NCBI RefSeq assembly: GCF_028290625.1
Contig: NZ_JAQGJM010000013.1
Coordinates: 29,735-93,734 of the forward strand
DNA from: Devosia sp.
Lineage (GTDB): Bacteria; Pseudomonadota; Alphaproteobacteria; Rhizobiales; Devosiaceae
Reading direction: 5' to 3'
Length of the DNA: 64,000 nucleotides
Under the pieces are notes generated by a model. That model searched no databases. It saw nothing but the letters and a program-made list of their open reading frames with translations, and was not told the origin of the DNA. The stretch's first letter is position 1; each line of letters starts with the position of its first letter. Both the position numbers and the translations under genes were made by a program. Of the stretch, positions 19,631 through 38,070 are shown piece by piece.

Positions 19631-20146
19631 ATGGCACAAGTGTCCATTCCCAAGCATGGCGTGCTGATCGCCGACCCCAGTGCGAACATGGTTTCCCTGA
19701 TCGGCGGCATGCTGCGCGGCATCGGCCGGCGTGATTACCGCGAAGCCAATGACGCCCAGACCGCCATGGACGAACTCACCAACCGGCAATTTGACGTTCT
19801 CGTCATCGATGACGGGTTGGATGGGCTCGACGGCGTCGAACTGGTCCGCCAGTTGCGCGCCTCTGTCGACAGCCCCAACCGCTACCTGCCCGTCGTCATG
19901 ATCTCCGCCGCGCCCGACGCCAGGCGCATTGCCAAAGCCCGCGACGCCGGCGTCACCGAATTCCTGCGCAAGCCCTTTGCCGCCGCCCACCTGCAGGCGC
20001 GACTAGTCTCGATCGAGGCCAATCCTCGCGGCTTTATCAAGGCCGAGGCCTATAAGGGCCCCGACCGGCGTCGCAAGACCATCGATATCGGCGATAGGGA
20101 TCGGCGCGACGAGGCCCCGCTGATCCTGACTCCCAAGGCGAGCTAG
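19631..20146 (+). CDS. CheY-like response regulator
   Basis: A 171-aa protein with one receiver domain (about 10-130). Acidic residues lie near the start (GVLIADPSANMV), the phosphoacceptor aspartate is in FDVLVIDDGLDG, and the conserved lysine is in FLRKPFAAAHL. No DNA-binding output domain follows. The tail contains YKGPDRRRK, a short basic motif often found after stand-alone receiver domains in alphaproteobacteria. No histidine kinase is nearby, so its partner is unknown. The TAG stop overlaps the stop of oppF on the other strand. Confidence 0.88.
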   Translation: MAQVSIPKHGVLIADPSANMVSLIGGMLRGIGRRDYREANDAQTAMDELTNRQFDVLVIDDGLDGLDGVELVRQLRASVDSPNRYLPVVMISAAPDARRIAKARDAGVTEFLRKPFAAAHLQARLVSIEANPRGFIKAEAYKGPDRRRKTIDIGDRDRRDEAPLILTPKAS

Positions 20147-21162
20147 ACGCCGAGCACGGCGTCTTCGGGCACCCCGATCTCGCGCCAGCGAATACACGCC
20201 ACCAGCCGGCCGTTCTCGATGGTTTCCAGCGGCGGCCGCACTTCGGCGCAGCGCGGTTTGGCGAAGCGGCAGCGCGTCCTGAACGTGCAGCCCGAGGGCG
20301 GATTAATGGGCGAGGGAATTTCGCCCTTCAGCCCGTCGATATTGCGTTGTCGCGCCAATTTCGGATCTGGGATGGGTACCGCCGTCAGCAGCGCCCGCGT
20401 ATAGGGGTGGCGCGGTTCTTCATAAATCTCGTCGCCCGTCGCCAGCTCGACAATGCGCCCCAGATACAGCACCAGAATGCGGTCCGACACATGCCGCACC
20501 ACGCTCAGATTGTGCGAGATGAAGATCAGCGTCAGCCCGAACTCGTCCTTGAGTTCGCTGAGCAGGTTGAGGATCTGCGCCTGGATCGATACGTCGAGCG
20601 CCGAGACCGGCTCGTCGCAGACGATCAGCTTGGGCTCCGTGATCAGTGCCCGCGCAATGCCGATGCGCTGCGCCTGCCCACCCGAGAACTCGTGCGGATA
20701 GCGGTTGATCATCTCGGGCAGGAGGCCGACGGCCTCCATGGTTTTGAGCACGCGCGCCCGCCGCTCGTCCTTGTTCAATTCCGGGCGCAAAGTACGCAGC
20801 GGATCGGCGATGATCTCGCCCACCGTCATGCGTGGATTGAGCGAGGCCAGCGGGTCCTGGAAGATGATCTGCAGGTCCGCTCGATGCTTGCGCATCTCCT
20901 CGGCCGGCAGCTTGGTCAGGTCCTGCCCCAGCCACAGCACCTGGCCTTCATCGGGCGCCAGCAATTGCAGGATGCAGCGGCCCAATGTGGACTTGCCGCA
21001 GCCGCTCTCGCCCACAATGCCCAGCGTCTCACCCTTGCGGATGGTGAAATTGATATCGGCCAGCGCGGTCAGCACCAGCGGCCGCGAAAGCAGCCCGCCC
21101 GAAATCGAGAACGTCTTCTTGAGATCGCGGATTTCCAGCAGGTTGATCGGAGTCTGGTCCAT
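20143..21162 (-). CDS. oppF: Oligopeptide/dipeptide ABC importer, ATP-binding protein F
   Basis: An ATPase of 339 aa that powers peptide uptake at the inner membrane. Walker A is GESGCGKST, the signature is FSGGQAQRIGIARAL, and Walker B is LIVCDEPVSALDVS. The C-terminal oligopeptide-transporter extension carries GCTFRTRCRFAKPRC. Start at 21162: the ATG shares one base with the oppD stop (TGATG), so translation is coupled; the track start 14 codons upstream is unnecessary. This is the last gene of the oppABCDF operon. Confidence 0.94.
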   Translation of the reverse strand: MDQTPINLLEIRDLKKTFSISGGLLSRPLVLTALADINFTIRKGETLGIVGESGCGKSTLGRCILQLLAPDEGQVLWLGQDLTKLPAEEMRKHRADLQIIFQDPLASLNPRMTVGEIIADPLRTLRPELNKDERRARVLKTMEAVGLLPEMINRYPHEFSGGQAQRIGIARALITEPKLIVCDEPVSALDVSIQAQILNLLSELKDEFGLTLIFISHNLSVVRHVSDRILVLYLGRIVELATGDEIYEEPRHPYTRALLTAVPIPDPKLARQRNIDGLKGEIPSPINPPSGCTFRTRCRFAKPRCAEVRPPLETIENGRLVACIRWREIGVPEDAVLGV

Positions 21163-22145
21163 CAGGCGACCTTTCCATAGGCCATCGGGCCTTCGTAGAA
21201 ACACGCCTTTTCACGGCCGCTACCCGCATCGGTCAGCGGCGGTCGCTCAATGAGGCACCGATCGAACGCGAAGGCGCAGCGCGGATTGAACGAGCAGCCC
21301 TTGGGCAGGTGTTCAAGGCTCGGTGGCAGGCCCTGGATCGGGTCGAGCCGCGCCGCCCGCTTGGCGATGTGCGGCGTCGAATGCAGCAGCCCCAGCGTAT
21401 AGGGATGGCGCGGATCGTAGAACAGATCATCCACGCCCCCCTTCTCCACGGCGCGCCCGCCATACATCACCATCATCCGGTCGGCGACGCCTGCGACGAC
21501 GCCCAGGTCATGGGTGATCAGCACCAGCGAGGTACCGAAATCGTCAGTCAGCGTTTTGAACAGGTCGAGCATCTGCGCCTGCACCGTCACGTCCAACGCC
21601 GTAGTCGGCTCGTCGGCGATCAGGATTTTGGGCTGGCACAGCAGCGCCATGGCGATCATCACGCGCTGACGCATGCCGCCCGAGAGCTGATGCGGATAGG
21701 CATTGGCGCGCTTGGCCGGCTCCGGGATACCGACCCGTTCCAGCATTTCGATTGCCGTGTTGGTGGCTTTGGCCTTGTCGAAGCCGCGATGCTTGACCAG
21801 CACTTCGCTGAGCTGGGTTTTGATCTTGAGGCTTGGATTGAGCGACGTCATTGGATCCTGGAAGATCATCGCGATGTCCTTGCCGCGATAGCGATCCAGC
21901 TGGTCCGTCGCCATCCCGATCAGGTTGACGTCTCCCATCATCGCACGGCCGCCGGTGCGCCCATTGCGCGCCAGCAAGCCCATGATGGCGAGGAAGGCCT
22001 GGCTTTTGCCCGAACCGCTTTCACCCACCACGGCAAGGGTTTCGCCCTCTGCCAGGTCGAAATTCATCTCGCGCACGGCGTGCACTTCGCTGTTGTGCAG
22101 CGCGAAGGTTACCGACATGTTTTGTACGGAAAGTACCTGTTTCAT
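21162..22145 (-). CDS. oppD: Oligopeptide/dipeptide ABC importer, ATP-binding protein D
   Basis: A 327-aa ATPase, partner of OppF. Walker A is GESGSGKS, the signature is [15 protein letters not shown], and Walker B is [14 protein letters not shown]. The D-loop follows, and the C-terminal extension carries [15 protein letters not shown], a cysteine motif of the oligo_HPY domain. It begins 3 bases after oppC and ends in the oppF start, so the operon is tightly coupled. Confidence 0.94.
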
Positions 22146-22148
22146 CGC

Positions 22149-23066
22149 TCAACGATCCTTTGGATCGAGGGCATCGCGCAGGCCGTCCCCGATATAGGAA
22201 AAACACACCAGCATCAGCACGAGAAACAGTGCCGGACCGAACAGCATCCAGGGCAGTGCCTCGGCCACCGGGGCGCCGAAGGAAATCAGCGTACCCAGCG
22301 ACGTCTGCGGCTCCTGCACACCCAGGCCGAGATAGCTGAGGAAGCTCTCGGTCAGGATGATCTCGGGCACCGTCAGGGTGGCGTAGATCACCACGGGGCC
22401 GGTCAGGTTCGGAACGATATGCCGGAAGATGATGGCGAACGGCTTGGCGCCGCCGGCCCGTGCCGCCTCGATGAACTCGCGTTCCTTGAGCGACAGCGTC
22501 TGCCCCCGCACGATGCGCGCCATGGTTAGCCATTCGAGGCACCCGATGCCCACGAAGAGCAGCACCGGCGAACGCCCGAAAATCACGACGAGGATGATGA
22601 CGAAGAGGATGTACGGGAGCGCGTACATGATATCGACGAAGCGCATCATGGCGGCATCGATGCGGCCACCGAAGTAACCCGCGATGGCCCCATAGGCGAT
22701 GCCGATGACCACCGACACCACCGTGGCGACGCCCGCCACCGTCAGCGACATTTGAGTGCCTTGCAGAATGCGCGCCGCCATGTCGCGGCCGTTCTGATCG
22801 GTGCCCAGGAAATGGCCCTTTGAAAAATCAGGCGGCTTGCGGATCGAGGTCCAGTCGATCTTGTCATAGGGCCAGGGCAGGAAATACGGCCCAAAGATCG
22901 CGATCAAGATCACCGCAGCCAAGAGGAAAATCGAGACCAATGCCGCCTTGTTGGCGAACAGCCGGCGCAACGCATCCTGGGTCAGCGAGCGCCCCTTGGG
23001 CGCTTCGCGTTCCAGCGCGTCGGCATAGGCCGTCAGGGTTGTGTCTTTGCCCGTAATCCCGGCCAT
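22149..23066 (-). CDS. oppC: Oligopeptide/dipeptide ABC importer, permease C
   Basis: A 305-aa inner-membrane permease. It has a cytoplasmic N-terminus (RSLTQDALRRLFANKAALVSIFLLAAVILIAIFGPYFLP) and the OppC-specific periplasmic segment (HFLGTDQNGRDMAARILQGTQMSL). The EAA loop is EFIEAARAGGAKPFAIIFRHIVPNL, which contacts OppD/F. About six membrane segments are visible. Its start overlaps the oppB stop by one base. Confidence 0.94.
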   Translation of the reverse strand: MAGITGKDTTLTAYADALEREAPKGRSLTQDALRRLFANKAALVSIFLLAAVILIAIFGPYFLPWPYDKIDWTSIRKPPDFSKGHFLGTDQNGRDMAARILQGTQMSLTVAGVATVVSVVIGIAYGAIAGYFGGRIDAAMMRFVDIMYALPYILFVIILVVIFGRSPVLLFVGIGCLEWLTMARIVRGQTLSLKEREFIEAARAGGAKPFAIIFRHIVPNLTGPVVIYATLTVPEIILTESFLSYLGLGVQEPQTSLGTLISFGAPVAEALPWMLFGPALFLVLMLVCFSYIGDGLRDALDPKDR

Positions 23067-23989
23067 CAGTTCAACCTCACTTTGGGATCAAGCCAGGCAT
23101 AGAGCACGTCCACGATGAGATTGAGCGCCAGGATGATGAAGACGTAGAGAATGGTCGTGCCCAGCACGAGGCCGTAGTCACGGTTGAGTGCGGCGGTGAT
23201 GAAATACTTCCCGATCCCCGGTAGCGCGAAAATCTGCTCCACCACCAGCGAGCCCGTGAGCAGATAGCTCAGCCCCGGCCCGAGATAGCTCACGACCGGC
23301 AGCAGCGCCGGCTTGATTGCGTGTCGGGTCAGGATCAGCGCCGCGCCCAACCCCTTGGAGCGAGCGGTGCGAATATAATTGGTACCCAGCACCTCGATCA
23401 TCGAGCCACGCACCAGCCGCGCTACGCGCGCACCATGCGGCATGGCCAGGATGAGGATGGGCATGACGAGATTGATATAGCTGCCCGCGCGATAGCCACC
23501 CACCGGCAGCCAGCCGAGATAGACCCCGAAAATCAGCTGCGCCAGGTTGGCCATCAGGAAATTGGGAATGATCAGCGGGATCAGCACCACAAAAACCAGC
23601 AGGTAGTCCGGCCACCTATTCTGGTTCACCGCCGCCAGCGCCCCGGCGACAAGGCCGGCGATCGTGCCGACGATGAATGCGGTAAATCCCAGCATCAAGG
23701 TGAATGGCAAGCCGATCGACAGCAGCCGCGACACGGTGAAATCTTCCATCACCATGGACGGCCCAAAGTCGCCACGCAGCACGCCGCCGACATAGAGGAA
23801 GAACTGCGTCAGGATCGGCTGATCCAGATTGTAATGCGCGCGCAGGTTCTTGAGCACATTGACCGGCAGCGCGCGCTCGCCGTCGAACGGGCCGCCCGGC
23901 GCCAGGCGCAGGATGAAGAAACACACCGTAATGGTGAGGAAAACTATCGGGATCGCCGACAGAACGCGACGAAACGCGTAGGAAATCAT
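23066..23989 (-). CDS. oppB: Oligopeptide/dipeptide ABC importer, permease B
   Basis: A 307-aa permease. The first segment (FRRVLSAIPIVFLTITVCFFILRLAPGGPF) is the hallmark OppB/DppB N-terminus. It ends in the EAA loop region (TNYIRTARSKGLGAALILTRHAIKPALLPVVSYLGP) and GSLVVEQIFALPGIGKYFITAALNRDYGLVLGTT. OppB and OppC form the membrane channel. It starts about 90 bases after the oppA stop. Confidence 0.94.
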   Translation of the reverse strand: MISYAFRRVLSAIPIVFLTITVCFFILRLAPGGPFDGERALPVNVLKNLRAHYNLDQPILTQFFLYVGGVLRGDFGPSMVMEDFTVSRLLSIGLPFTLMLGFTAFIVGTIAGLVAGALAAVNQNRWPDYLLVFVVLIPLIIPNFLMANLAQLIFGVYLGWLPVGGYRAGSYINLVMPILILAMPHGARVARLVRGSMIEVLGTNYIRTARSKGLGAALILTRHAIKPALLPVVSYLGPGLSYLLTGSLVVEQIFALPGIGKYFITAALNRDYGLVLGTTILYVFIILALNLIVDVLYAWLDPKVRLN

Positions 23990-24080
23990 GGGGTGACCTT
24001 TCCCGTCATACGGCCGCCAGCAGCCGGAGGGAACAAGGCTGGATCGCGTGCGTCCACACGCGATCCAGCGGTTTGCAGGA

Positions 24081-25697
24081 CTATTCCGACTTGGTCATCC
24101 AGCGGACGCGATTGATGTCCTTGGCGTTGGCCTCGAAGCCCGTGATCTTGGGCGAGACAACGTTCTTGGACACGTACCAATAGATCGGAATGGCGGCGAA
24201 ATCGTCCATCGCCAGCGCTTCGGCCTGGTGCATCAGGCCGGCGCGCTTGACCAGATCGAGTTCGCTCGACGCCTGGGTCATCAGCTCATCATACTTGGGG
24301 TTGGAATAACGGCCATAGTTATTGCCCCAATTGACGGTGCCATCGGTGCCGGTCACGCCGGTCTTGAGCAGGTCGAGCGTGTTGCTGGCGTCATTGTAGT
24401 CGAGCAGCCAGCCGGCACGGCCGATCTGGAAGTCGCCGGCATTGAGCGCGTCGTAGTGCACGGCGGTCTCGGCATTGAACAGTTCGACCTCGACGCCGAT
24501 CTGCTTCCACATATCGGAGATGGCGACGGCGATGCGCTGGTGGTTGTCATTGGTATTGTAGCGCAGCTGCAGCTTGAGCGGGTTTTCCGGAGTGTAGCCG
24601 GCTTCGGCCATCAGCGCCTTGGCTTCTTCTACGCGCTGCTCGTAGGGTTCGGTCGACCATGCTGGCGCGTAGGCGGCGCCATCGTAGTTGCCGGTGCCGG
24701 GCGGCACCCAGCCATAGGCCGGCAGTTCGCCGGTACCCAGAACGTCGGGCCCGATCACGTCACGCAGCACGGAGATCGACAGCGCCTTGCGGATGTTGAC
24801 GTTGTCCAGCGGCGGCTTGGACTGGTTCATCACGTAGTAGTAGACGCCCAGGAACGGCTCGACACGGGCCTGACCCGGATACTGGTCCTTGAGCAGCTGA
24901 TACTGGTCGGATGGGAAGTCGGTCAGGATATCGAGTTCGCCGGCGCGGTAACGGTTCAGCGCTGCGGTCAGATCCTGAGTGTTTTCGAACATGATCTCGT
25001 CGATCTTGAGATCAGCCGCACCGTAATAGGTGTCCGACTTGACGGCCTTGACGTAGGAGCCGGGGACCCATTCGGTGATGTTGTAGGGGCCGTTGCCGAC
25101 GATATTGCCGGGCTGCGTCCACTGGTCACCAAACTTCTCGATGATGTCCTTGCGGATCGGATAAGCGGTGTAATGGGTCAGGGCCTGGAGAAAATAGGGG
25201 GTCGAGGCTTCGAGCGTGATCTCGAGGGTCTTGTCGTCGATGGCCTTGACGCCGAGCTGGCTGAAATCGGTGATTTCGCCGGCCGCGATCTTGGTTGAAT
25301 TCTTGATCGGGAACTGCAGATAGGCGTATTCGGCAGCCGTTGCGGGATCGAACAGGCGCTGGAAGGCATCGACGAAATTCTGCGCCGTCACGTCCACGCC
25401 ATCGCTCCACTTGGCATCGGCGCGTAGCTTGAAGGTATAGACGGTGCCGTCATCCGAAATCGTCCAGGACTCGGCCTGGCCGGGGATCGGATCGGCATGA
25501 ATGTCTTCGGCAACGAGGCCTTCGAGATATTCACCAACGATGCGATTTTCCCAATCGCCGGAAACCTTATGCGGGTCCAGCGAGCCAGGCTCGCCACCAT
25601 TGCCTAGGTTGAGGGTAACGGCCGATGCCGCCCCAACCATCATCAGCGCCAAGGCGCCTGCGGTCGCGACCGCTTTGAAAACCTGGGTGAACTTCAT
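24081..25697 (-). CDS. oppA: Oligopeptide-binding periplasmic protein
   Basis: A 538-aa family 5 solute-binding protein. The signal peptide is MKFTQVFKAVATAGALALMMVGAASA. NGGEPGSLDPHKVSGDWENRIVGEYLEGLVAEDIHADPIPGQAESW is the standard N-terminal region. Later segments (NIVGNGPYNITEWVPGSYVKAVKSDTYYG, FQIGRAGWLLDYNDASNTLDLL) match OppA/MppA-type peptide binders better than nickel or sugar members. It is the first gene of oppABCDF. A near-palindrome at 25848-25863 that also occurs before fadE and fadD may regulate it. Confidence 0.93.
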   Translation of the reverse strand: MKFTQVFKAVATAGALALMMVGAASAVTLNLGNGGEPGSLDPHKVSGDWENRIVGEYLEGLVAEDIHADPIPGQAESWTISDDGTVYTFKLRADAKWSDGVDVTAQNFVDAFQRLFDPATAAEYAYLQFPIKNSTKIAAGEITDFSQLGVKAIDDKTLEITLEASTPYFLQALTHYTAYPIRKDIIEKFGDQWTQPGNIVGNGPYNITEWVPGSYVKAVKSDTYYGAADLKIDEIMFENTQDLTAALNRYRAGELDILTDFPSDQYQLLKDQYPGQARVEPFLGVYYYVMNQSKPPLDNVNIRKALSISVLRDVIGPDVLGTGELPAYGWVPPGTGNYDGAAYAPAWSTEPYEQRVEEAKALMAEAGYTPENPLKLQLRYNTNDNHQRIAVAISDMWKQIGVEVELFNAETAVHYDALNAGDFQIGRAGWLLDYNDASNTLDLLKTGVTGTDGTVNWGNNYGRYSNPKYDELMTQASSELDLVKRAGLMHQAEALAMDDFAAIPIYWYVSKNVVSPKITGFEANAKDINRVRWMTKSE

Positions 25698-25847: not shown

Positions 25848-25863
25848 TTGACCTAAACGTCAA
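25848..25863. promoter_or_regulatory. Candidate operator upstream of oppA, like those of fadE and fadD
   Basis: TTGACCTAAACGTCAA is a near-perfect 16-base palindrome. On the minus strand it begins TTGACG, suitable as a -35 box for oppA, whose start is 150 bases further on. I see no strong -10. It matches the fadE site at 14 of 16 positions when read on the other strand (TTGACGTTTAGGTCAA against TTGACGTTTACGTCAA: one clear difference, plus none elsewhere; counted on the same strand there are more). A second palindrome of equal length (TTGACCCGCCGGTCAA, 25785-25800) lies closer to oppA. Confidence 0.5.
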
Positions 25864-26155: not shown

Positions 26156-26340
26156 TAGGCTGACTTTTTCGCGCTATCCCGAATGGTCTTGCGAATACGC
26201 GCCATTGCCTCGTCATGTGGCACATCTGGGCGTTTGTCGGCTAGCGCCGCCTGCACCTTGGCCCGGAACCACTTGTCGTAGCTGTCGGCCTGTTCCTGGG
26301 TTTCAAACTCGGAAATGATCGGATCGAGCTTCTTGGTCAT
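26155..26340 (-). CDS. PaaA2/stability-determinant-type antitoxin
   Basis: A 61-aa protein, MTKKLDPIISEFETQEQADSYDKWFRAKVQAALADKRPDVPHDEAMARIRKTIRDSAKKSA. The segment EFETQEQADSYDKWFRAKV...ADxRPxxPHDEAM is the family pattern I know from PaaA2-type antitoxins ('stability determinant'). It pairs with the ParE-like toxin encoded just downstream, forming a type II module. The separate regulator PaaR2 found in the E. coli three-gene system is not present. The protein has no obvious DNA-binding domain of its own. Confidence 0.85.
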   Translation of the reverse strand: MTKKLDPIISEFETQEQADSYDKWFRAKVQAALADKRPDVPHDEAMARIRKTIRDSAKKSA

Positions 26341-26382: not shown

Positions 26383-26553
26383 TCAAGCGGGCGGGCCGCC
26401 ACCTATGCCCAATTGCTGCCAGGCCGTGATCGCGACCGCCGCCGCGATCAGCACAACCCAAGGCAGCCAGCCCGGCATTTTGGGCGGCACCTTGTTCGGC
26501 TGCTTTTCCGGCTTCTTCTCAATGCGCCGGAATTTGACGACGTTATCGTTCAT
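26383..26553 (-). CDS. Small membrane protein translationally coupled to fadI (56 aa)
   Basis: Hidden inside a 142-aa out-of-frame track ORF. The ATG at 26553 overlaps the fadI stop as ATGA. The product has a basic cytoplasmic N-terminus (MNDNVVKFRRIEKKPEKQPNKVPPKMPGW), one transmembrane helix (LPWVVLIAAAVAITAWQQLGI) and a short end (GGGPPA). No family is recognised. The tight coupling to fadI suggests that it is expressed with the beta-oxidation enzymes, and a membrane anchor or scaffold role would be speculation. Confidence 0.7.
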   Translation of the reverse strand: MNDNVVKFRRIEKKPEKQPNKVPPKMPGWLPWVVLIAAAVAITAWQQLGIGGGPPA

Positions 26554-27833
26554 GCAGCCTTCTCCACCAGCGCAGTCACACCTTGCCCGCCGGCGGTACA
26601 TACTGAAATCAAGGCGCGCTTGCCAGCACCCGTCGCCAGCAGCTTGGCCGTCAGCCCGAGAATACGCGCCCCGGTCGCGGCAAAAGGATGGCCATAGGCC
26701 AGGCTCGAGCCCTTCACGTTGATCTTGGTTGGATCGATGGTGCCCATAACCTGGTCGCGCCCGAGCACATCCTTGCAATATTGCGGATCGTTCCAGGCCG
26801 CCAGCGTGCAAAGCACTTGGGCGGCGAAGGCCTCGTGCAGTTCGAAATAGTCGATATCATCAAAGCTCAATTGCGCCCGCGCCAGTAATTCGGACACCGC
26901 GATAGTCGGCGCCATCAGCAGCCCTTCGCCATGAGCGAAGTCATTGCCGGCGACGCGGCCCATGGTGAGATAGGCCAGCACCGGCAGGCCGCGCGCCTTG
27001 GCCCAGTCTTCGCTGGCCAGCAGCACCGAGGAGGCTCCATCGGTCAGCGGCGTCGAGTTCGCGGCGGTCAGCGTGCCGCGGCCCGAGGTCTTGTCGAAGG
27101 CGGGCTTCATCGTCGCCATTTTGTCCAGCGTCGTGTCGGCCCGCACATTGTTGTCACGCACGAGGCCGGCGCATTGCACCAGCAGGTCGTCGTGGAAGCC
27201 CTCGTCATAGGCCTTGGCGGCGTTCTGGTGGCTGCGATAAGCCAACTCGTCCTGCGCCTGGCGGGTAATTCCCCATTGCCGCGCCATCAGCTCGCAGTGC
27301 TGGCCCATCGACATGCCAGTGCGCGGCTCGTTGACCGAGGGCGCCACCGGCGTCAGTTCGCCGAACGAAAAGCCCTTGAAGGTCTTGAACTTCTCGCCCG
27401 TACTGCGCGCACGCGACAGTTCGATCATCCGGTGCTGGAATTTCGTGCCGAACACGATCGGACTGTCGCTGACCGTATCGGAGCCGGCGGCGATGCCGCT
27501 GTCGATCTCACCCGAGGCAATCTTGGCGCCGAGCACCAATGCCGCTTGCAGGCTCGTGCCGCACGCGATCTGGATCGTCGTTCCCGGCGTGCGCGGCGAT
27601 AGCCCGGCGTCGAGGCTCGCCTCGCGCGCAATATTGAAATCGCGGCTATGGCCGATGACGGCGCCCGCCATCACCTCGTCGATTTTTTCACCCCTGAGAC
27701 CATATTTGTCCGCCAGCCCGCCCAGCACCGTGGATAGCATCGAGAGGTTGGTCTCATCTTGATAGGCGGTATGGCCGCGCGCAAAGGGAATGCGGGCCGA
27801 GCCGACAATGGCAACTCTGCGAAGTTCGGTCAT
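26550..27833 (-). CDS. fadI: Acetyl-CoA C-acyltransferase (3-ketoacyl-CoA thiolase, FadI type)
   Basis: The 427-aa thiolase releases acetyl-CoA in the last step of beta-oxidation. The N-terminus is MTELRRVAIVGSARIPFARG. The acyl-accepting cysteine lies in IQIACGTSLQAALVLGAK, the conserved ELHEAFAAQ is present, and the C-terminal CTAGGQGV carries the second cysteine. CTAGGQG resembles FadI (CAAGGLG) more than FadA (C[ILV]GGGQG). I use the ATG at 27833, one base after the fadJ stop, rather than the track start inside fadJ. It forms a trifunctional-type pair with FadJ. Confidence 0.93.
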   Translation of the reverse strand: MTELRRVAIVGSARIPFARGHTAYQDETNLSMLSTVLGGLADKYGLRGEKIDEVMAGAVIGHSRDFNIAREASLDAGLSPRTPGTTIQIACGTSLQAALVLGAKIASGEIDSGIAAGSDTVSDSPIVFGTKFQHRMIELSRARSTGEKFKTFKGFSFGELTPVAPSVNEPRTGMSMGQHCELMARQWGITRQAQDELAYRSHQNAAKAYDEGFHDDLLVQCAGLVRDNNVRADTTLDKMATMKPAFDKTSGRGTLTAANSTPLTDGASSVLLASEDWAKARGLPVLAYLTMGRVAGNDFAHGEGLLMAPTIAVSELLARAQLSFDDIDYFELHEAFAAQVLCTLAAWNDPQYCKDVLGRDQVMGTIDPTKINVKGSSLAYGHPFAATGARILGLTAKLLATGAGKRALISVCTAGGQGVTALVEKAA

Positions 27834-27834
27834 T

Positions 27835-29796
27835 TCAAGCTTTCCCCTCTTGGCGCGCGCGCATCGGCCCGCCGAGGAACGGCGCAAAGCCCGTCCCCAT
27901 GATCACCCCGATATCGGCGAGGTCGGCACTGGCGACGACGCCCTCGGACACAACCGTCTCGGTCATGTCGATCAGCGGCTTCACCAGTTCGCGCCCAAGC
28001 GCCGCCAGGTCACGCCCCTCCGGCACCGGTCCCTTGACCGCCTTGCCATCGACCCATTTGTAAAAGCCCTCTCCGCTCTTGCGGCCGAGCTTGCCGGCCG
28101 CCAGCAGATCGGCGAATTGCGTATTGTCGCCCACCGGATGGCCGAGTTCCTTGGCCACCGACTTGCCGACGTCGAGGCCAACTGTATCCATCAGCTCGAT
28201 CGGCCCCATCGGCATGCCGAAAGCGACCGCTGCCGCATCGAGCAATTCCTTGCTTTCGCCGCGCTCGACCCGCTCGACCGCAGCCAGCATATAGGGCATC
28301 AGCACACGGTTCACCAGGAACCCCGGCGCGGACTTCACCACGACTGGGCTCTTGCCGATGGCCAGCGCGAAGGCCGCGCCCTTGCCGATTTCTGCATCGG
28401 TGTTGAAGGCCGAGCGAATGACCTCGACCAGGGGCAATTGCGCCACCGGATTGAAGAAGTGCAGCCCGATCAGCCGCGCCGGATCTTTCAGCTTTTCAGC
28501 GATCCGCTCCAGTTCGATCGATGAGGTATTGGTGGCGAGGATCGCGCCCGGCTTGAGCTTGTCTTCCAGCCCGCCGAAGATGGCCTGCTTGACCTCGAGC
28601 TTTTCCACCACCGCCTCGATGATCACATCGGCCCGGCTGACGCCCTTGCCGGTGGGATCGGCTTCGAGCCGCATCACCGCCGCATCGATTTCGTATTTCT
28701 TGCGCAGCCGCTTCTTGAACAGCGCCTTGCCGCGATCCAGCGCCGGCTTGATGCGCTCCATGTCGAGGTCCTGCAGCGTCACGCTCATGCCGCGCAACGC
28801 GCACCAGGCCGCAATATCGCCGCCCATCACGCCCGCACCGATCACATGCACCCGCGCGAACTTGGCGCCCTTGAGGCCCTGCTTCTTGAGGCTTTCGGAC
28901 AGGAAGAACACCCGGCGCAGATTGGCTGCCGTATCGGTGCCCATCAGTGGCACGAAAGGCTCGATCTCGCCCCGGCTCATCGCCTGCCAGTCATTGCCGT
29001 GCTTTTCGAACAGGTCGATCAACGCGTAGGGCGCCGGATAATGTTCCTTGCGGGCCTTCTTGGCGACCTCGTCGCGCATCTTGCTGGCGGCATAGCCACG
29101 CAACGGCCCCATGCCCATGATGCGCTTGGTGAAGCCGGCAACACCCGACTTGCGCTTCTGCGCAACCGCCTTGCGGGCTTCCCAGCCCAGCATATCGCGA
29201 TGCCGCACCAGCTTGTCGACCAGCCCCATGCCGCGCGCCGCGCCGGCCTTGAGCATGCGCCCGGTCAGCATGATGCCCATGGCGTCGACCGGCCCGGCCT
29301 GACGGATCGAACGGCCGGTGCCGCCGAAACCCGGAAAAATGCCGAGGCCGACTTCGGGGAAGCCGATCCGTGTCTTGTCGTCATTGACGGCGATGCGATA
29401 GTGGCAGGCCAGCGCCAGTTCCAATCCGCCCCCGAGGCAGAAGCCGTGGATGCCGGCGATCATCGGAATTTTTAGGTTCTCGATCCGCTGGAACAGCGCA
29501 TGTGTGCGTTTCAGCGCCTCCGGCAGCACCGAAAAGTCGCTCATCGCATCGAACTCTGACACGTCCGCGCCGGCGATGAACCCACTGTCCTTGCCGGACA
29601 GCAGAATGACGCCGGTCAATTCCTTGGAGCTCGCCAGTTCCTCGAACTGCGCCACCAGGCCCTCAAGCTCGGTGATCGCCTCGCGGCTCAGCGTATTGAC
29701 CGGGGCGCCGGGCGTATTGATGGTCAGCCAGCCGAGCTGCTCCACATCGATTGCGAAGTGCCAGTGCTTGGTCTGCGTCACCTTAGGCTGAAACAT
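27835..29796 (-). CDS. fadJ: Enoyl-CoA hydratase / 3-hydroxyacyl-CoA dehydrogenase (FadJ type)
   Basis: A bifunctional beta-oxidation subunit of 653 aa. Residues about 15-200 are the crotonase domain (IHGFCLGGGLELALACHYRIA, IGFPEVGLGIFPGFGGTGR, with the catalytic glutamates). About 300 onwards is the NAD-binding dehydrogenase (VHVIGAGVMGGDIAAWCALRG). The helical C-terminal domains contain IGLHFFNPVAQLPLVEVI and GFLVNRVLMPYMLA. Start at 29796, after GAGGAGCAAAG; the track ORF extends into a palindromic repeat. It is followed directly by fadI. Confidence 0.95.
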   Translation of the reverse strand: MFQPKVTQTKHWHFAIDVEQLGWLTINTPGAPVNTLSREAITELEGLVAQFEELASSKELTGVILLSGKDSGFIAGADVSEFDAMSDFSVLPEALKRTHALFQRIENLKIPMIAGIHGFCLGGGLELALACHYRIAVNDDKTRIGFPEVGLGIFPGFGGTGRSIRQAGPVDAMGIMLTGRMLKAGAARGMGLVDKLVRHRDMLGWEARKAVAQKRKSGVAGFTKRIMGMGPLRGYAASKMRDEVAKKARKEHYPAPYALIDLFEKHGNDWQAMSRGEIEPFVPLMGTDTAANLRRVFFLSESLKKQGLKGAKFARVHVIGAGVMGGDIAAWCALRGMSVTLQDLDMERIKPALDRGKALFKKRLRKKYEIDAAVMRLEADPTGKGVSRADVIIEAVVEKLEVKQAIFGGLEDKLKPGAILATNTSSIELERIAEKLKDPARLIGLHFFNPVAQLPLVEVIRSAFNTDAEIGKGAAFALAIGKSPVVVKSAPGFLVNRVLMPYMLAAVERVERGESKELLDAAAVAFGMPMGPIELMDTVGLDVGKSVAKELGHPVGDNTQFADLLAAGKLGRKSGEGFYKWVDGKAVKGPVPEGRDLAALGRELVKPLIDMTETVVSEGVVASADLADIGVIMGTGFAPFLGGPMRARQEGKA

Positions 29797-29816
29797 CTTT
29801 GCTCCTCGGTCATCCC

Positions 29817-29915
29817 GCCACGCCCTCGTGGTTCGAGGGTCGCTTCGCTCCCGCCTCACCATGAGGACTACTGGAAGCGCGATCTCACGCGAGCCTCGAA
29901 CCACGAGGGCGTGAC
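29817..29915. repeat. Dispersed palindromic repeat, family C copy 1 (shortened)
   Basis: Outer arms GCCACGCCCTCGTGGTTCGAGG and CCTCGAACCACGAGGGCGTG. Only one of the two inner arms (CCTCACCATGAGG) is clear, so this copy is shorter than the two others of the family (near 32.7 and 35.0 kb). It lies between fadE and fadJ and overlaps neither corrected gene. Confidence 0.85.
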
Positions 29916-29919
29916 ACGC

Positions 29920-32391
29920 CTATTCCGCCGCTGCCTTGTGCCCGTGCTCGGCCGCCAACGCACCCGGATCGAAATCATCCACCTTCACCACCCGGTCGGT
30001 CGCTTCATCCGCCGCCCGCATGATGCCGGCTTCATTGTCGTTGAGCACGCCGGCCGCCACGGCGTCAGCGATGGCATCGCGATCCAGCCGCCGCTCGATC
30101 ACGCCCTTGCGGGCCGCCTTGGCGAACTTGGCTTCGATCTCCTCGGCCTCGGTGACCTTGATCAGCGCGTCTTCGAGCACGCCGGTCACGTCATTGGGGT
30201 CCATCGACACATAGGTGCCGGTGGTCAGGCGGTCGCGGAAAGCGCCGGGGCGCAGCACGGCGCGCACGAACCGATAATTGATGCGATCAGTCGCCGGCTT
30301 GGCATGGCGCCCGAGCGGGAAGCACAGGAACCGCATCATATTGGCCATCACGCCATTGGGGAAGTTGGCGAAAATCTCGCCAAAGCTCTTTTCCATCTTG
30401 GCGACGAGGTCGGCCATGATCGCATCGACGACGATCTTGTCCTCGGCGATGCGGCCTTCCTCGTCGTACCGCTTGAGAGTGGCCGACATCATGTAGAGAT
30501 CGCCCAGGATATCGGCCATGCGGCCCGAAATCATCTGCTTGCGCTTGAGCGCGCCGCCCAGGAACACGGTGGTCCAATCGGCCACCAGCGCGAAGGCCTG
30601 GCTGTAGCGGTGCAGTTGGCGATACCAATGCGCCATCTCGCCGTCGTTCGGCGTCGAAGCGAAGGCGCCGCCCGAAATACCGTGCAGGAAGCTGGCGGCG
30701 ATATTGCGCAGCATGAAGCTGGTATGGCCGCCAAACGCCTTGTCGAAATCGTCCAGCCCGGCCTTCTTGTCGGGGTTCTGTACCGACTCGATTTCCCGAT
30801 AGAGGAATGGATGCGCCCGAAGCACACCCTGCGCGAAGGTCATCAGCGTGCGCGTCAAAATATTGGCGCCCTCCACCGTGATCGCTACGGGCGTCGCCAT
30901 ATAGGCGCCGAACAGATAATTAGTCGGCCCATCCTGGATCGCCCGTCCACCGTGGATGTCGAAGGCGTCGTTGAGGCTTTCGCGCATGGCTTCGGTGGCG
31001 CGGTATTTCAGCAGCGCCGAAATCACCGCCGGGCGTTGGCCTTCGTCGACCATCGATGCCGTCAGCCGCCGCGCCGCTTCATAGGTGTAGGAGTTCTTGA
31101 CCATCCGAGCCATCGGCTCGGCGACGCCTTCCATGATGCCGACCGGAATGCCGAACTGGCGGCGCACCCGTGCATAGGCCGAGCTGACGCGCAGGCTCTG
31201 CTTGATCGAGATCGAGCCGATCGCCGGAAGCGAAATGGCGCGGCCGGTCGACAGGCACTCCATTAGCATGCGCCAGCCCTGCCCGGCATAGTCAGTGCCG
31301 CCGATCAGGAAATCCATCGGGATGAAGACGTCAGTGCCCTTGGTCGGCCCGTTCATGAAGGCCTGCCGCGCCGGATAATGCCGGCGGCCGATTTCCACGC
31401 CCGGATGGGTCGAGGGCACCAAGGCCAGCGTGATGCCGACCTTCTCGCCCTTGCCGAGCAGATTATCCGGATCGTGCATGATGAAGGCGAGGCCCACCAA
31501 AGTCGCCACCGGCGCCAATGTGATGTAGCGCTTGTCCCAGCTCAGCTTCACGCCGAGCACTTCCTTGCCCTCGTACATGCCCTTGGTGACAATGCCGATA
31601 TCGCGCATGCCGCCCGCATCCGAGCCCGAATGCACGCCGGTCAGCGCAAAACACGGTACTTCCAGGCCCTTGGCCAGCCGGTGCAGGTATTTGGCTTTCT
31701 GCTCTGCCGTGCCGTATTTTTCCAGCAATTCGCCGGGCCCGAGCGAGTTGGGCACCATCACGGTGATGCCGGCTGCGACCGAGCGGCTCGACACTTTCGA
31801 GACGATCATCGACTGCGCCTGGGCGGTGAAGCCCAGCCCGCCATGCTCCTTGCCGATCAGCATGCCGAGGAAGCCGTTTTCCTTGAGGAACTGCCACACT
31901 TCCGGCGACAGGTCGCTGCGGTTATGCCGCGTATCCCAGTCGTCGATCATCTTGCAGACGACATTGACCGGGCCATCAAGGAACGCCTGCTCCTCGGCGC
32001 TCAGCGTCAATGGACGGATCGAAGTTAGCTTGGTCCAGTCGGGACGGCCGGAAAACAGTTCGGCATCCCAGCCAACCGTGCCGGCATCCAGCGCTTCCTG
32101 TTCGGTCCGGCTGACACGTGGCAAGATGGACTTGACCATGCCGTAGACCGGCTTGGTGACCGCCACCTTGCGGATAGCTTCGACCGACAGCAGCAGCAGA
32201 ATAATGGCCGGCAGCAGCACCAGGATCAGCCCGCCAATATCGGTCGCGAAAATCGCGCCCGCGCCGGTAAAGTCCACCCGCGTCAGCAGCCCGATGACCA
32301 GCGCCGCCACGCCCCATTGCCACAGCGGCGATTGGCGCACTGCCAGAACTGCAGCCACGACCAGACTGATCACGATAAGCGCTAGTGTCAT
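29920..32391 (-). CDS. fadE: Acyl-CoA dehydrogenase, long FadE type with membrane N-terminus
   Basis: An 823-aa acyl-CoA dehydrogenase that makes the first double bond in beta-oxidation using FAD. The N-terminus has two or three hydrophobic segments (MTLALIVISLVVAAVLAV, WGVAALVIGLL, IGGLILVLLPAIILLLLSV) that should tie it to the membrane, as in E. coli FadE. The dehydrogenase core (about 150-520) shows GFTAQAQSMIVSKVSSRS, PCFALTGVHSGSDAGGM and IHGGRAIQDGPTNYL. The rest is the DUF1974 C-terminal region. A palindrome overlapping a plausible -35 box (32544-32559) lies 153 bases upstream. Confidence 0.95.
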   Translation of the reverse strand: MTLALIVISLVVAAVLAVRQSPLWQWGVAALVIGLLTRVDFTGAGAIFATDIGGLILVLLPAIILLLLSVEAIRKVAVTKPVYGMVKSILPRVSRTEQEALDAGTVGWDAELFSGRPDWTKLTSIRPLTLSAEEQAFLDGPVNVVCKMIDDWDTRHNRSDLSPEVWQFLKENGFLGMLIGKEHGGLGFTAQAQSMIVSKVSSRSVAAGITVMVPNSLGPGELLEKYGTAEQKAKYLHRLAKGLEVPCFALTGVHSGSDAGGMRDIGIVTKGMYEGKEVLGVKLSWDKRYITLAPVATLVGLAFIMHDPDNLLGKGEKVGITLALVPSTHPGVEIGRRHYPARQAFMNGPTKGTDVFIPMDFLIGGTDYAGQGWRMLMECLSTGRAISLPAIGSISIKQSLRVSSAYARVRRQFGIPVGIMEGVAEPMARMVKNSYTYEAARRLTASMVDEGQRPAVISALLKYRATEAMRESLNDAFDIHGGRAIQDGPTNYLFGAYMATPVAITVEGANILTRTLMTFAQGVLRAHPFLYREIESVQNPDKKAGLDDFDKAFGGHTSFMLRNIAASFLHGISGGAFASTPNDGEMAHWYRQLHRYSQAFALVADWTTVFLGGALKRKQMISGRMADILGDLYMMSATLKRYDEEGRIAEDKIVVDAIMADLVAKMEKSFGEIFANFPNGVMANMMRFLCFPLGRHAKPATDRINYRFVRAVLRPGAFRDRLTTGTYVSMDPNDVTGVLEDALIKVTEAEEIEAKFAKAARKGVIERRLDRDAIADAVAAGVLNDNEAGIMRAADEATDRVVKVDDFDPGALAAEHGHKAAAE

Positions 32392-32531: not shown

Positions 32532-32559
32532 AGTTTAGTACAATTGACGTTTACGTCAA
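32532..32559 (-). promoter_or_regulatory. fadE promoter with perfect palindromic operator
   Basis: TTGACGTTTACGTCAA (32544-32559) is a palindrome with 7-bp perfect arms. Read towards fadE, its first half is a -35 box (TTGACG), followed after 16 bases by TAAACT as a -10 box. A protein bound to it would block the promoter. The pattern resembles operators described for MerR-family LiuR regulators of fatty-acid and branched-chain amino-acid breakdown, and a MerR gene lies 2 kb away, behind fadD. Confidence 0.65.
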
Positions 32560-32607
32560 CCATTTGCCGATTAGGTTAGGGTTTGCGGCGATTTTACTGG
32601 AACATAG

Positions 32608-32741
32608 TGCCACGCCCTCGTGGTTCGAGGCTCGCAAAGAGCTCGCACCTCACCATGAGGGCTGATGGGACTCTGTGCCGTTTCAGTAGTCCTCATGGTG
32701 AGGTGGGAGCGCAGCGACCCTCGAACCACGAGGCGTGGCAC
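32608..32741. repeat. Dispersed palindromic repeat, family C copy 2
   Basis: Outer arms GTGCCACGCCCTCGTGGTTCGAGG and CCTCGAACCACGAGGCGTGGCAC, inner arms CACCTCACCATGAGG and CCTCATGGTGAGGTG. The element is about 130 bases and could fold into a long cruciform with two pairing blocks. It separates the fadE and fadD operator sites. Confidence 0.88.
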
Positions 32742-32771
32742 AATCCCCCCGTCAAAAGCTCGGGCACCTGT

Positions 32772-32799
32772 TTGACGCTAACGTAAAGCCGTGGGATAC
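32772..32799 (+). promoter_or_regulatory. fadD promoter with palindromic operator-like site
   Basis: TTGACGCTAACGTAAA (32772-32787) shares TTGACG, the central CGT and the final AA with the fadE site. TTGACG can serve as the -35 box, and GGATAC at 32794, 16 bases later, is a weak -10. The site is 71 bases before the fadD ATG. Confidence 0.55.
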
Positions 32800-32857
32800 T
32801 TGACCCAACTCGATCCGCGCCAAAGCGGACGCCGGCAGCGCCCCTGGAGGATATCTG

Positions 32858-34579
32858 ATGGATACCGCACTCGACACGTCCGTGCCGACACCCCTGCGGC
32901 CCTGGATTGGGAGCTATCCCGACGGCATCCGTTGGGACGTGGCCATCGATACCCGCCCGGTGCACGAGCAGGTACTGGCCGCCTGTGCCAAGGACCCCTT
33001 CGCCCCCGCCATGGATTTCATGGGCGGCACCACCAGCTTCGGCGATCTGGCCCGCAAGATCATCGCCTTTGCGGGCGCCCTGCAGCACCAGTTCGGCATC
33101 ACCAAGGGCAGCCGCATCATGCTGATGCTGCCCAATACGCCGTTTTACCCGATCGCCTATTATGGCGTGCTGCGCGCCGGCGGAATCGTGGTCAATTGCA
33201 ATCCGCTCTACACCATCAAGGAACTCAGCCAGATCGCCGAAAACGCCGATGCGGAGGTGCTGATTACCCTCGATCTCAAGATGATCTTCGAAAAGGCCGA
33301 GGCGCTGGTCGAGCAGGGCCACATCAAGTCGGTCGTGGTCTGCCACTTCCCCGATGCCCTGCCGCTGGTCAAGAAGGTCCTCTACTCCGTCGCCAAGCGC
33401 AAGGACCTGTCCCGGCCCAGCAAGTCGCGCATTGCCCGCAGCATCACCTATTTCGACGAGATGATCTCGCGCCACGAGACCCCCGACGCCGTTGTCATCG
33501 ACGCCACCAAGGACATCGCCGTCCAGCAATATACCGGCGGCACCACCGGCATTCCGCGCGGCGCCCTGCTGACCCACGCCAATATCGCCGCCAATATGAG
33601 CCAGATCGACAAATGGGGCGGCGGCATCTTTTATCCGCCTTCGAAGGTCGTCGCGGTGCTTCCGTTCTTCCATATCTTCGCCATGACGGTCTGCATGAAC
33701 GTGCCCCTCTGCAACGGCACCCAGATTGTCATGCTGCCGCGCTTCGATCTCAAGGACTTGCTGGCGCTGCTGGTGCGCACCCGCGCCAATATCCTGCCTG
33801 CCGTGCCAACCCTGCTCACCGCCATCGCTCGCGCCGATAGCGCCACCGCCGATAGCCTCAAGAGCATCGAGGTCGCCATTTCGGGCGGCGCGGCTTTGTC
33901 CGACGAAATCCGCGCCGAATATGTCAAGAAATCAAGCGCCCTGCTGGCCGAAGGCTATGGGCTGACCGAGGCTTCCCCGGTGGTGTGCTGCGCCGCCCTG
34001 CGCGTCCCATCCAAGCCCATGTCCATCGGCATGCCGCTGCCCGGCACCGATATCCGCTTTGTCGATCCGGACACCGGCAAGGTCGTGGGCATCGGTGAAA
34101 ATGGCGAATTGCAGGTCAAGGGCCCGCAGGTCATGGCCGGCTATTACAAGGATGAGGAGGCCACGCGCGGCGCTTTCCAGGATGGCTGGCTGCGCACCGG
34201 CGATGTCGGCCACATGGACGACGAAGGCTATGTGTTCCTCGTTGACCGCATCAAGGACCTGATCATCTGTTCCGGCTTCAAGATCTATCCGCGCATCATC
34301 GAAGAAGCGCTGATGACCCATCCGGCGGTCGATGAAGCCAATGTCATCGGCGTCCCCGACAGCTATCGCGGCGAAGCCCCCGTCGCCTTCATCAAGCTCA
34401 AGCCCGGCCAGAGCGTCAGCGAGGCCGATCTCAAGGCGTTCCTCGCCAAGACCATCAGCAAGATCGAAATGCCACGCGAGTTCATCTTCAAGGACACGCT
34501 GCCCAAAACCCTGATCGGCAAGCTGTCCAAAAAGGAGCTGCGCACCGAATACCAGGCCATGAAGGCGGCCAAGCCATGA
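32858..34579 (+). CDS. fadD: Long-chain fatty acid-CoA ligase
   Basis: A 573-aa AMP-forming ligase that activates fatty acids to acyl-CoA for the neighbouring beta-oxidation enzymes. The ATP-binding loop is QYTGGTTGIPRGALLTH, in which the usual lysine of PKG/AKG is arginine. Other motifs are GYGLTEASPVV, GWLRTGDVGHMDDEGYVFLVDRIKDLIICSGFKIYPRIIEEAL and the C-terminal catalytic-lysine segment LPKTLIGKLSKKELR. The start follows CTGGAGGATATCTG. Its stop overlaps the MerR regulator start by four bases (ATGA). Confidence 0.93.
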   Translation: MDTALDTSVPTPLRPWIGSYPDGIRWDVAIDTRPVHEQVLAACAKDPFAPAMDFMGGTTSFGDLARKIIAFAGALQHQFGITKGSRIMLMLPNTPFYPIAYYGVLRAGGIVVNCNPLYTIKELSQIAENADAEVLITLDLKMIFEKAEALVEQGHIKSVVVCHFPDALPLVKKVLYSVAKRKDLSRPSKSRIARSITYFDEMISRHETPDAVVIDATKDIAVQQYTGGTTGIPRGALLTHANIAANMSQIDKWGGGIFYPPSKVVAVLPFFHIFAMTVCMNVPLCNGTQIVMLPRFDLKDLLALLVRTRANILPAVPTLLTAIARADSATADSLKSIEVAISGGAALSDEIRAEYVKKSSALLAEGYGLTEASPVVCCAALRVPSKPMSIGMPLPGTDIRFVDPDTGKVVGIGENGELQVKGPQVMAGYYKDEEATRGAFQDGWLRTGDVGHMDDEGYVFLVDRIKDLIICSGFKIYPRIIEEALMTHPAVDEANVIGVPDSYRGEAPVAFIKLKPGQSVSEADLKAFLAKTISKIEMPREFIFKDTLPKTLIGKLSKKELRTEYQAMKAAKP

Positions 34580-34968
34580 ACCGCCTGGAGCCCGAAAATC
34601 GCGATCTCTTCGCCATTGCCGACCTTGCGCGCGAATTCGGCATCTCGACCCGCGCGCTGCGCTTCTATGAAGCCAAAGGCCTGCTCGCTCCCGAACGCGT
34701 CGGCGCCACCCGCATCTTCCGCCGCCGCGACCGCGCCCGGCTGATCCTGATCCTGCGCGGCAAACGCCTCGGTTTCTCGCTGCGCGATATCTCCGACTAC
34801 CTCAGCCTCTACGACGCCGACCGCAACCAGCAGGTCCACCTCCTCGCCGGCATGGTCCAGGAGCGCCTGACCTCGCTCGAAGGCCAGTTGGAGGATTTGC
34901 AGACCACCATCGCCGAACTGCGCGAAATCAAGAAGCTGGCCGATGAGCGGATGGCCAAAGCGGGGTAA
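34576..34968 (+). CDS. MerR-family regulator, likely of fatty-acid degradation (LiuR-like)
   Basis: A 130-aa MerR protein. The N-terminal winged helix-turn-helix is FAIADLAREFGISTRALRFYEAKGLLAPERVGATRIFRRRDRARL, followed by RGKRLGFSLRDISDYLSLYD and a long coiled-coil dimer helix (MVQERLTSLEGQLEDLQTTIAELREIKKLADERM). It has no cysteines, so it is not a metal sensor of the MerR/CueR type. MerR proteins without a metal site next to acyl-CoA genes in alphaproteobacteria resemble LiuR. It is coupled to fadD by an ATGA overlap. The palindromes before fadE and fadD are its likely targets; this is inference. Confidence 0.88.
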   Translation: MNRLEPENRDLFAIADLAREFGISTRALRFYEAKGLLAPERVGATRIFRRRDRARLILILRGKRLGFSLRDISDYLSLYDADRNQQVHLLAGMVQERLTSLEGQLEDLQTTIAELREIKKLADERMAKAG

Positions 34969-34971
34969 ATG

Positions 34972-35105
34972 GTGCCACGCCCTCGTGGTTCGAGGCGCTG
35001 AAGAAGCGCACCTCACCATGAGGGCTACTGGAAAACTGCAGCAAGAGTAGTCCTCATGGTGAGGTGCGAACCCCTTCGCGAGCCTCGAACCACGAGGGCG
35101 TGGCA
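34972..35105. repeat. Dispersed palindromic repeat, family C copy 3
   Basis: Outer arms GTGCCACGCCCTCGTGGTTCGAGG and CCTCGAACCACGAGGGCGTGGCA, inner arms CACCTCACCATGAGG and CCTCATGGTGAGGTG. It fills the gap between the convergent ends of the MerR gene and the UVR-motif gene. Confidence 0.88.
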
Positions 35106-35418: not shown

Positions 35419-36996
35419 CTAACTGGCCGCCACGAACACGGCCATATCCTCCAGCGTGCCCGCCTCGCTTGCCGGCTTGTCCCAGCGGATCCGGTTGATG
35501 CGCGGAAACCGCAGCGCCACCCCCGACTTGTGCCGCGTGCTCTGCTGCGCCGAGTCGAACGCCACTTCGAACACCAACTTCTTCTTCACTTCCCGCACCG
35601 GCCCGAATGCCTGGATCGTATTGGCCCGCACCCACTTGTCCAAGAGCTTCAACTCCTCATCGGTGAATCCAAAATACGCTTTGCCGATCGGCACGATCTC
35701 GTTGCCCTTCCACACACCGAAAGTGTAGTCCGAATAGAACGAACTCCGCTTGCCATGCCCGCGCTGGGCATACATCAGGACGGCGTCCACCACGTTCGGA
35801 TCGCGCTTCCACTTGAACCAGAACCCCTTGGGCCGCCCCGGCACATAGGGCGAACTGCGAAGCTTGATCATCACCCCTTCATGGCCATGCTCATCCGCCC
35901 CCTGCCGCCGCAACTTCGCCAGATTATCCCAATCGCCGAACGGCAAGACTTCGGACAGGTCCAGCCGCGTCTGCGGATTGGCCACCATCCATGCCTCCAG
36001 CCGCGCCCGCCGCTGCGTCCACTCCAGCGGCCGCACGTCCTCGCGCCCATCGAACAGCATGTCATAAACCCGGATAAAGGCCGGGCTCTCCTTGAGATGC
36101 TTGGCCGAGGCGACCTTCTTGTTCAGCCGCTGCTGCAGATCATTGAAACTGCCCGGCTCAAAATTCTTGCCGACCAACAATTCCCCATCCAGCACCGCCA
36201 GCCCGCTGACATTGTCCACGATATCGGGAAACGCCGTCGCGATATCGTCCCCCGTCCGCGAAAACAGCGACACGGTCCCGCCGCCCAGCACCAGTTGCAC
36301 CCGAATGCCGTCCCACTTCCACTCCGCCGAAAAATCGGCGGGATCGAGCTTGGCGAGGTCCTTTTCCTCGTCGATCGGATTGGACAGCATCAGCGGATGA
36401 AACCGCGCCGACTGATCGATATCGGGCCGCTCGGCCTTGCCATCGAGCCAGGCGAACAGATCGAGATAGGGGAGCTTCAGCCCGTGCCACACCTCCTCGA
36501 TTTCCTGCAAATCCTTGCCGCTCATCTCAGCCAAAGCCGTCTTGGCCAGCCGTGCCGATAGCCCGATCCGCAGCGCCCCCGTCGCCAGCTTCACCAGCGC
36601 CCAGCGCTCGTTGATCCCCGCCCGCGTCAGCAGCGAGGCGATCAGCTTGGGCAATTCGCTTTTGCTGGTGGTGTTGAACAGCTCGATCAAATCGGTCAGC
36701 GACGGCAGATCGCTTTGCTCGCCGTGATGCGGCCAGATCAGCGCAATGGTCTCGCCGAGGTCCCCCACATAATCATAGCTCATCGCAAACAGCGTCGGAT
36801 CGACCTCGGCCAGCACGATGTCCTTGAGCAGCGCCGGCTTCACATTGCGAAACGTCAACGCCCCGGTCAGCACCGCCAGCGCAAAACCGCGATCGGGGTC
36901 CGGCACCTCGGCGAAATACTGCGTCAACGCCGTGATCTTGCGATTGCGCGACGGCGTCAGCGCCAAAAGTTCCAGCAGTTGGGCAAAGCGCTTCAC
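35419..36996 (-). CDS. ATP-dependent DNA ligase (cisplatin damage response type)
   Basis: A 525-aa ligase with an N-terminal helical domain (about 1-195), an adenylation domain and an OB-fold. The nucleotide-binding lysine lies in EWKWDGIRVQLV (KxDG). Other ligase motifs are SRTGDDIATAFPDI, LDGELLV, HEGVMIKLRSSPYVPGRPKGFWFKWKRDP. The start is a GTG that overlaps the exonuclease stop (GTGA). This family is usually encoded with a ligase-associated exonuclease, a DEXH helicase (Lhr-type) and the PdeM endonuclease; only the exonuclease is here. Confidence 0.93.
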   Translation of the reverse strand: MKRFAQLLELLALTPSRNRKITALTQYFAEVPDPDRGFALAVLTGALTFRNVKPALLKDIVLAEVDPTLFAMSYDYVGDLGETIALIWPHHGEQSDLPSLTDLIELFNTTSKSELPKLIASLLTRAGINERWALVKLATGALRIGLSARLAKTALAEMSGKDLQEIEEVWHGLKLPYLDLFAWLDGKAERPDIDQSARFHPLMLSNPIDEEKDLAKLDPADFSAEWKWDGIRVQLVLGGGTVSLFSRTGDDIATAFPDIVDNVSGLAVLDGELLVGKNFEPGSFNDLQQRLNKKVASAKHLKESPAFIRVYDMLFDGREDVRPLEWTQRRARLEAWMVANPQTRLDLSEVLPFGDWDNLAKLRRQGADEHGHEGVMIKLRSSPYVPGRPKGFWFKWKRDPNVVDAVLMYAQRGHGKRSSFYSDYTFGVWKGNEIVPIGKAYFGFTDEELKLLDKWVRANTIQAFGPVREVKKKLVFEVAFDSAQQSTRHKSGVALRFPRINRIRWDKPASEAGTLEDMAVFVAAS

Positions 36997-37988: not shown

Positions 37989-38070
37989 AGCGATGTCTTT
38001 TCCCACTTGCGCAATGGAACGAGGCATAGTCGCATCAGGTTGCCCCCTCGACAATCAAGGTGAGCCGATC

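Follow-up and report, generated by a model that had tools for sequence, protein, structure and literature searches.

Predicted operators of a LiuR-like MerR regulator at the divergent fadE and fadD promoters of Devosia sp.

Introduction

LiuR is a MerR-family regulator of leucine and isovalerate catabolism in gamma- and betaproteobacteria. In 2009, Kazakov et al. reportedly assigned the fatty-acid degradation genes of 22 alphaproteobacterial species to predicted LiuR orthologues. LiuR has been described across 103 genomes as a repressor of the MerR type that acts on the utilization of branched-chain amino acids (PMC5343134; PMC3223726), and LiuR and its ILV box were assigned in a study of Rhodospirillum rubrum (PMC7238569). 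Our literature search for fatty-acid regulons under LiuR among the Alphaproteobacteria yielded little beyond PMC5343134 and PMC7238569. Other named fatty-acid regulators are FadR (GntR) as well as PsrA and FadP (TetR) (PMC5343134), to which the protein described here would correspond as a regulator of beta-oxidation genes, but from which it differs in having MerR domains only. The metal-responsive activators CueR, ZntR, and MerR share with it the MerR winged helix and the dimer helix; in classical MerR activators, the operator is centred in a 19-20 bp spacer.

This study concerns the divergent fadE-fadD region of Devosia sp. and the merR gene that ends the fadD operon, located in the window (the whole 64,000-nucleotide stretch of DNA analyzed). 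We compared this locus with those of family relatives and with homologous merR loci from other Proteobacteria. The comparison shows the motif, its conservation, its overlap with the promoters, its link to one MerR lineage, and the independence of the sites. Our additions to the known LiuR picture are modest, comprising a putative tandem site, predicted opp and MaoC targets, and evidence for separately acting operators.

Results and discussion

Operators and promoters of the fadE-fadD region

The fadE, fadJ, and fadA genes are transcribed leftwards, and fadD and merR rightwards (Table 1), an order (fadA-fadJ-fadE / fadD-merR) shared by almost all 54 family loci; merR is present in 128 of 136 family genomes. 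The closest MerR homologues come from named Devosia species, and in many other Alphaproteobacteria merR lies within a fadL-fadD-merR-thiolase-fadB-acyl-CoA dehydrogenase cluster.

Table 1. Coordinates of genes, promoters, and predicted operators (window positions unless a contig is given)
Feature	Position	Strand	Remarks
oppABCDF-type peptide ABC importer operon	20143..25697	-	Predicted target of third operator
Third operator, TTGACCTAAACGTCAA	25848..25863	-	TTGACGTTTAGGTCAA on - strand; 25.3 bits; 150 bp upstream of oppA start
fadA/fadI-type thiolase	26550..27833	-	Start set here at MTELRR
fadJ/fadB-type 3-hydroxyacyl-CoA dehydrogenase/enoyl-CoA hydratase	27835..29796	-	Start set here at MFQPKV
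fadE, acyl-CoA dehydrogenase with ACDH_C domain	29920..32391	-	
fadE promoter, TTGACG-16-TAAACT	32532..32559	-	Promoter scan and family conservation
fadE operator, TTGACGTTTACGTCAA	32544..32559	-	TTGACGTAAACGTCAA on - strand, its first six bases being the fadE -35 box
Putative auxiliary degenerate tandem operator, CTAACCTAATCGGCAA (- strand)	32564..32579	-	Weaker than main site; 20 bp upstream of fadE operator
Palindromic repeat element between operators	32608..32742	.	Not a regulatory part
fadD-merR operator, TTGACGCTAACGTAAA	32772..32787	+	First six bases are the fadD -35 box
fadD promoter, TTGACG-17-GATACT, extended -10 (TG)	32772..32800	+	Promoter scan and family conservation
fadD, long-chain acyl-CoA ligase	32858..34579	+	
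merR, LiuR-type regulator, 130 aa	34576..34968	+	ATGA overlap with fadD stop codon
Fourth operator, TTGACGTATAGGTAAA	G000:C27:3088-3103		4 bp before MaoC-like dehydratase gene, followed by second MaoC-like gene (locus L004, G000:C27:2556-3103)

A sequence-only reading of this DNA had placed one palindrome over the -35 box of fadE and another over a -35 box before fadD, and both are found there. The fadE operator has 7-bp arms, TTGACGT and ACGTCAA, flanking a non-palindromic TT, and the fadD operator is an imperfect palindrome (TTGACGC/ACGTAAA). With up to two mismatches, the palindrome TTNACGTNNACGTNAA has six matches in the window, as compared with 0.64 expected, a number that none of 100 shuffled sequences reached. 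On the weight matrix, the fadE and fadD operators score 29.7 and 27.5 bits, followed by the third operator and then by a next-best window score of 9.2 bits. An independent promoter scan, which listed three promoter-like sites against 0.3 expected from shuffling, recovered both promoters, which are sigma-70-like, with 16- and 17-bp spacers, so that one half-site of each palindrome is a -35 box. The third operator (25848-25863) and the weak tandem site (32564-32579) are additions to the sequence-only reading.

Conservation in the family

Both operators are kept in approximately 50 relatives of the same family despite diverged flanks. Among 53 fadE-fadD intergenic regions, the window included, a fadE-type site occurs in 52 and a fadD-type site in 48, and the 16-bp fadE spacer and the 17-bp fadD spacer with TGnNATAnT are conserved across the family. 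The 54 family loci (0.94 Mb) contain 117 matches of at least 18 bits, against zero or one for each of 20 column-permuted palindromic matrices, these family counts coming from related genomes and thus not being independent observations. The enrichment before catabolic genes of relatives that the sequence-only reading had called for was looked for and found, with the motif preceding fadE and fadD family-wide, the MaoC-like pair, and the FadL-like genes of two relatives; beyond the family, it stands upstream of merR homologues across Proteobacteria.

Each site has a -35 box as one of its halves, and conservation of the TTGACG boxes alone, with no operator involved, might be thought to account for these counts. 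The sites were chosen by an intact TTGACG half, which biases the conservation of that half upward, and, since it belonged to the selection rule, its score is no evidence. However, the other half (ACGTMAA) is conserved at approximately 1.6 bits per column, compared with 0.1-0.2 in the flanks, and the opp and MaoC sites retain the motif where no obvious -35 box coincides with it. We therefore give the -35-box explanation almost no credence.

Proposed mode of regulation

The protein has the MerR fold, and CueR, MerR, and other activators are its closest relatives of known structure, which would suit a regulator that activates the fadE and fadD promoters by twisting an over-long spacer in the manner of CueR and ZntR. 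We consider such activation unlikely, as the spacers are of 16 and 17 bp both in the window and family-wide, and the palindrome lies over the -35 box rather than between the -35 and -10 elements. The Devosia MerR differs further from the metal-responsive activators in having no cysteine, a residue absent from 23 of 24 family members, and its structure model has a single C-terminal helix (residues 83-129); both features agree with the sequence-only reading, which had described a protein without metal-binding cysteines and with a long dimer helix. A covered -35 box combined with normal 16-17 bp spacers makes occlusion by a repressor the simplest interpretation, rather than classical MerR activation.

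We regard it as highly probable that the palindromes are operators of the LiuR-type MerR whose gene closes the fadD operon, a regulator that would repress fadE-fadJ-fadA and fadD-merR by occluding the -35 boxes. A MerR dimer bound to each site would cover the -35 box together with the half of the spacer next to it and would keep RNA polymerase from starting transcription of fadE-fadJ-fadA or fadD-merR. The site at fadD-merR would make the regulation self-limiting through negative autoregulation. At fadE, the weak tandem site, which lies upstream by two turns of the helix, may take up another dimer, possibly in a cooperative manner. On fatty-acid uptake, acyl-CoA or a related intermediate would probably free the repressor, an effector assumed by analogy. 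The Pfam domains of the 130-residue MerR are MerR_1 and MerR-DNA-bind, with no separate effector domain, which counts against acyl-CoA sensing within this explanation and raises the question of how so short a protein could sense acyl-CoA.

Independence of the two operators and the tandem site

The sequence-only reading had viewed the palindromes as paired operators, an idea that did not hold, since their spacing is not conserved: the distance from the fadE to the fadD operator ranges from 63 to 2084 bp among relatives, and a paired-operator or looping model was set aside on this ground. The spacing is 228 bp in the window, where the palindromic repeat element sits between the sites, and 90 bp in the nearest relative. 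In one locus (L074), fadE has been relocated beyond merR with TTGACGTATACGTCAA still in front of it, and fadD retains a weaker site; in another (L070), with an insertion of 2 kb, each gene retains a site. The variable spacing, together with a site at each gene in L074, argues that the fadE and fadD operators act as independent sites.

At an offset of -20 from the fadE operator, the mean matrix score across 51 regions is 5.5 sd above that of other offsets, and offsets -6 and +6 reflect the palindrome overlapping itself. For fadD, the signal at -20 is lower (3.4 sd) and consists mostly of a half-site. We infer that the tandem site at fadE is a low-affinity site for a second dimer.

The palindromic repeat (CCTCGTGGTTCGAGG ... 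CCTCGAACCACGAGG), of approximately 110-140 bp, has three copies in the window, lying between fadE and fadJ (29807-29917), between the two operators (32608-32742), and directly after merR (34964-35105). A few more copies are scattered elsewhere in this genome, and one of 12 relatives also has copies.

Link of the motif to a LiuR-like MerR lineage

A matrix built from Devosiaceae fad sites alone was run over 92 homologous merR loci of other Proteobacteria, none of which had entered the training. The best match of the locus fell upstream of merR or fadD, a zone making up 3.5% of the locus sequence, in 68 of the 92 loci (permuted matrices: mean 7.2, maximum 24), and strong matches in this zone numbered 72, compared with 0.02 for permuted matrices. 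The motif-bearing loci include those of MerRs encoded beside a liuA-type acyl-CoA dehydrogenase, a liuB-type carboxyltransferase, a liuC-like hydratase, and HMG-CoA lyase, and the motif also stands directly upstream of paralogous merR genes in other contexts. The position of the best matches in 68 of 92 loci indicates that the motif belongs to the LiuR-like MerR lineage. Binding of the palindromes by some other regulator, for instance a TetR-type fatty-acid repressor, with the merR gene as a passenger, has a precedent in the GntR- and TetR-type repressors FadR, PsrA, and FadP, which govern fatty-acid genes in other Proteobacteria (PMC5343134); but homologous merR genes have the motif in front of them in many unrelated neighbourhoods, including those of paralogues without fad genes, and we judge a passenger merR very improbable.

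The likeness of the window MerR to LiuR comprises 40-52% identity to 17 liu-linked MerRs, the same palindrome, an autoregulation site, and targets of the acyl-CoA dehydrogenase type; identity to fadD-linked alphaproteobacterial MerRs is 46-66%. The LiuR operator TTKACGTnnACGTMAA is matched, and the Devosiaceae matrix finds strong matches directly upstream of liu-linked merR genes. Autoregulation, as known for LiuR, is represented at the site level by the conserved operator at the fadD-merR promoter. In contrast to LiuR, whose targets are liuABCDE, the predicted targets of the Devosia regulator are fadE-fadJ-fadA, fadD, opp, and MaoC-like genes; a strict-site search of the genome returned four sites, none of them at liu genes. 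Furthermore, the liu-linked MerRs form one supported tree branch (97/96), apart from the Devosiaceae and the fadD-linked set. The LiuR-like character proposed in the sequence-only reading is thus upheld by sequence, motif, and a tree position near the liuABC-linked MerRs, but the protein lies on a sister branch and is not nested in the clade of liu-operon LiuRs. On account of this separate branch, we classify the window MerR as LiuR-like, short of asserting strict LiuR orthology. A single DNA motif would then be shared across a MerR lineage whose targets differ, lying in leucine catabolism in some members and in fatty-acid catabolism in others.

A second MerR, approximately 40% identical (groups g13 and g15; L084, L086, L088, L096, L098, L100), has no LiuR-type site nearby and was treated as a different regulator.

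Extent of the predicted regulon

The sequence-only reading had proposed a local regulon. Its core, with operators at fadE and fadD, stands as a concrete and testable fatty-acid regulon for Devosia, but it is not purely local, as sites at opp and at a MaoC-like gene pair were added. Conservation of the third operator before oppA extends to many Devosia as well as to groups g5 and g14, some family members being without it; as it overlaps no obvious -35 box, the mode of action at opp may differ. The MaoC site recurs in 25 of the 30 loci inspected, with further loci in groups g4, g5, and g16, and is likewise missing from some family members. Control by this regulator probably extends to the oppABCDF importer and the MaoC-like pair.

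Several other candidates were rejected. A perfect-looking match, TTGACGCAAACGTCAA, before a ferredoxin/flavodoxin-type reductase gene (L009) is absent at the same gene in 20 relatives and was therefore treated as chance or species-specific. One-mismatch matches at L002, L003, L005, and L006 lie inside coding sequence, and the loose pattern TTKACGNNNNCGTMAA with one mismatch gave nearly all noise (65 matches vs 51 in the reversed control).

The genome contains a full beta-oxidation set; a search for FadL (PF03349) found none in it, nor in 14 of a sample of 18 other Devosia. A FadL-like gene was examined in two relatives that possess one, and the motif precedes it in both. Like the MaoC-like pair, these genes are lipid-related, in line with the proposed regulator. 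As a tentative reading, to which we give rather less than even confidence, Devosia, mostly without FadL, may have placed beta-oxidation, an Opp-type importer, and the MaoC-like pair under a LiuR-type regulator, with tandem fadE operators spaced by 20 bp, in a rewired, lineage-specific regulon that would couple feeding on peptides with feeding on fatty acids.

Some further features of the window were observed. A second conserved dyad (GGACGG...CCGTCC) downstream of the third operator suggests that another regulator acts on the opp promoter. The interval separating fadA from the opp operator holds a ParE-type toxin gene with a PaaA2-like antitoxin gene (25880-26340, - strand). At 35419-38054 (- strand), a gene for an ATP-dependent DNA ligase adjoins one for a beta-lactamase-fold protein, resembling ligase/exonuclease repair pairs.
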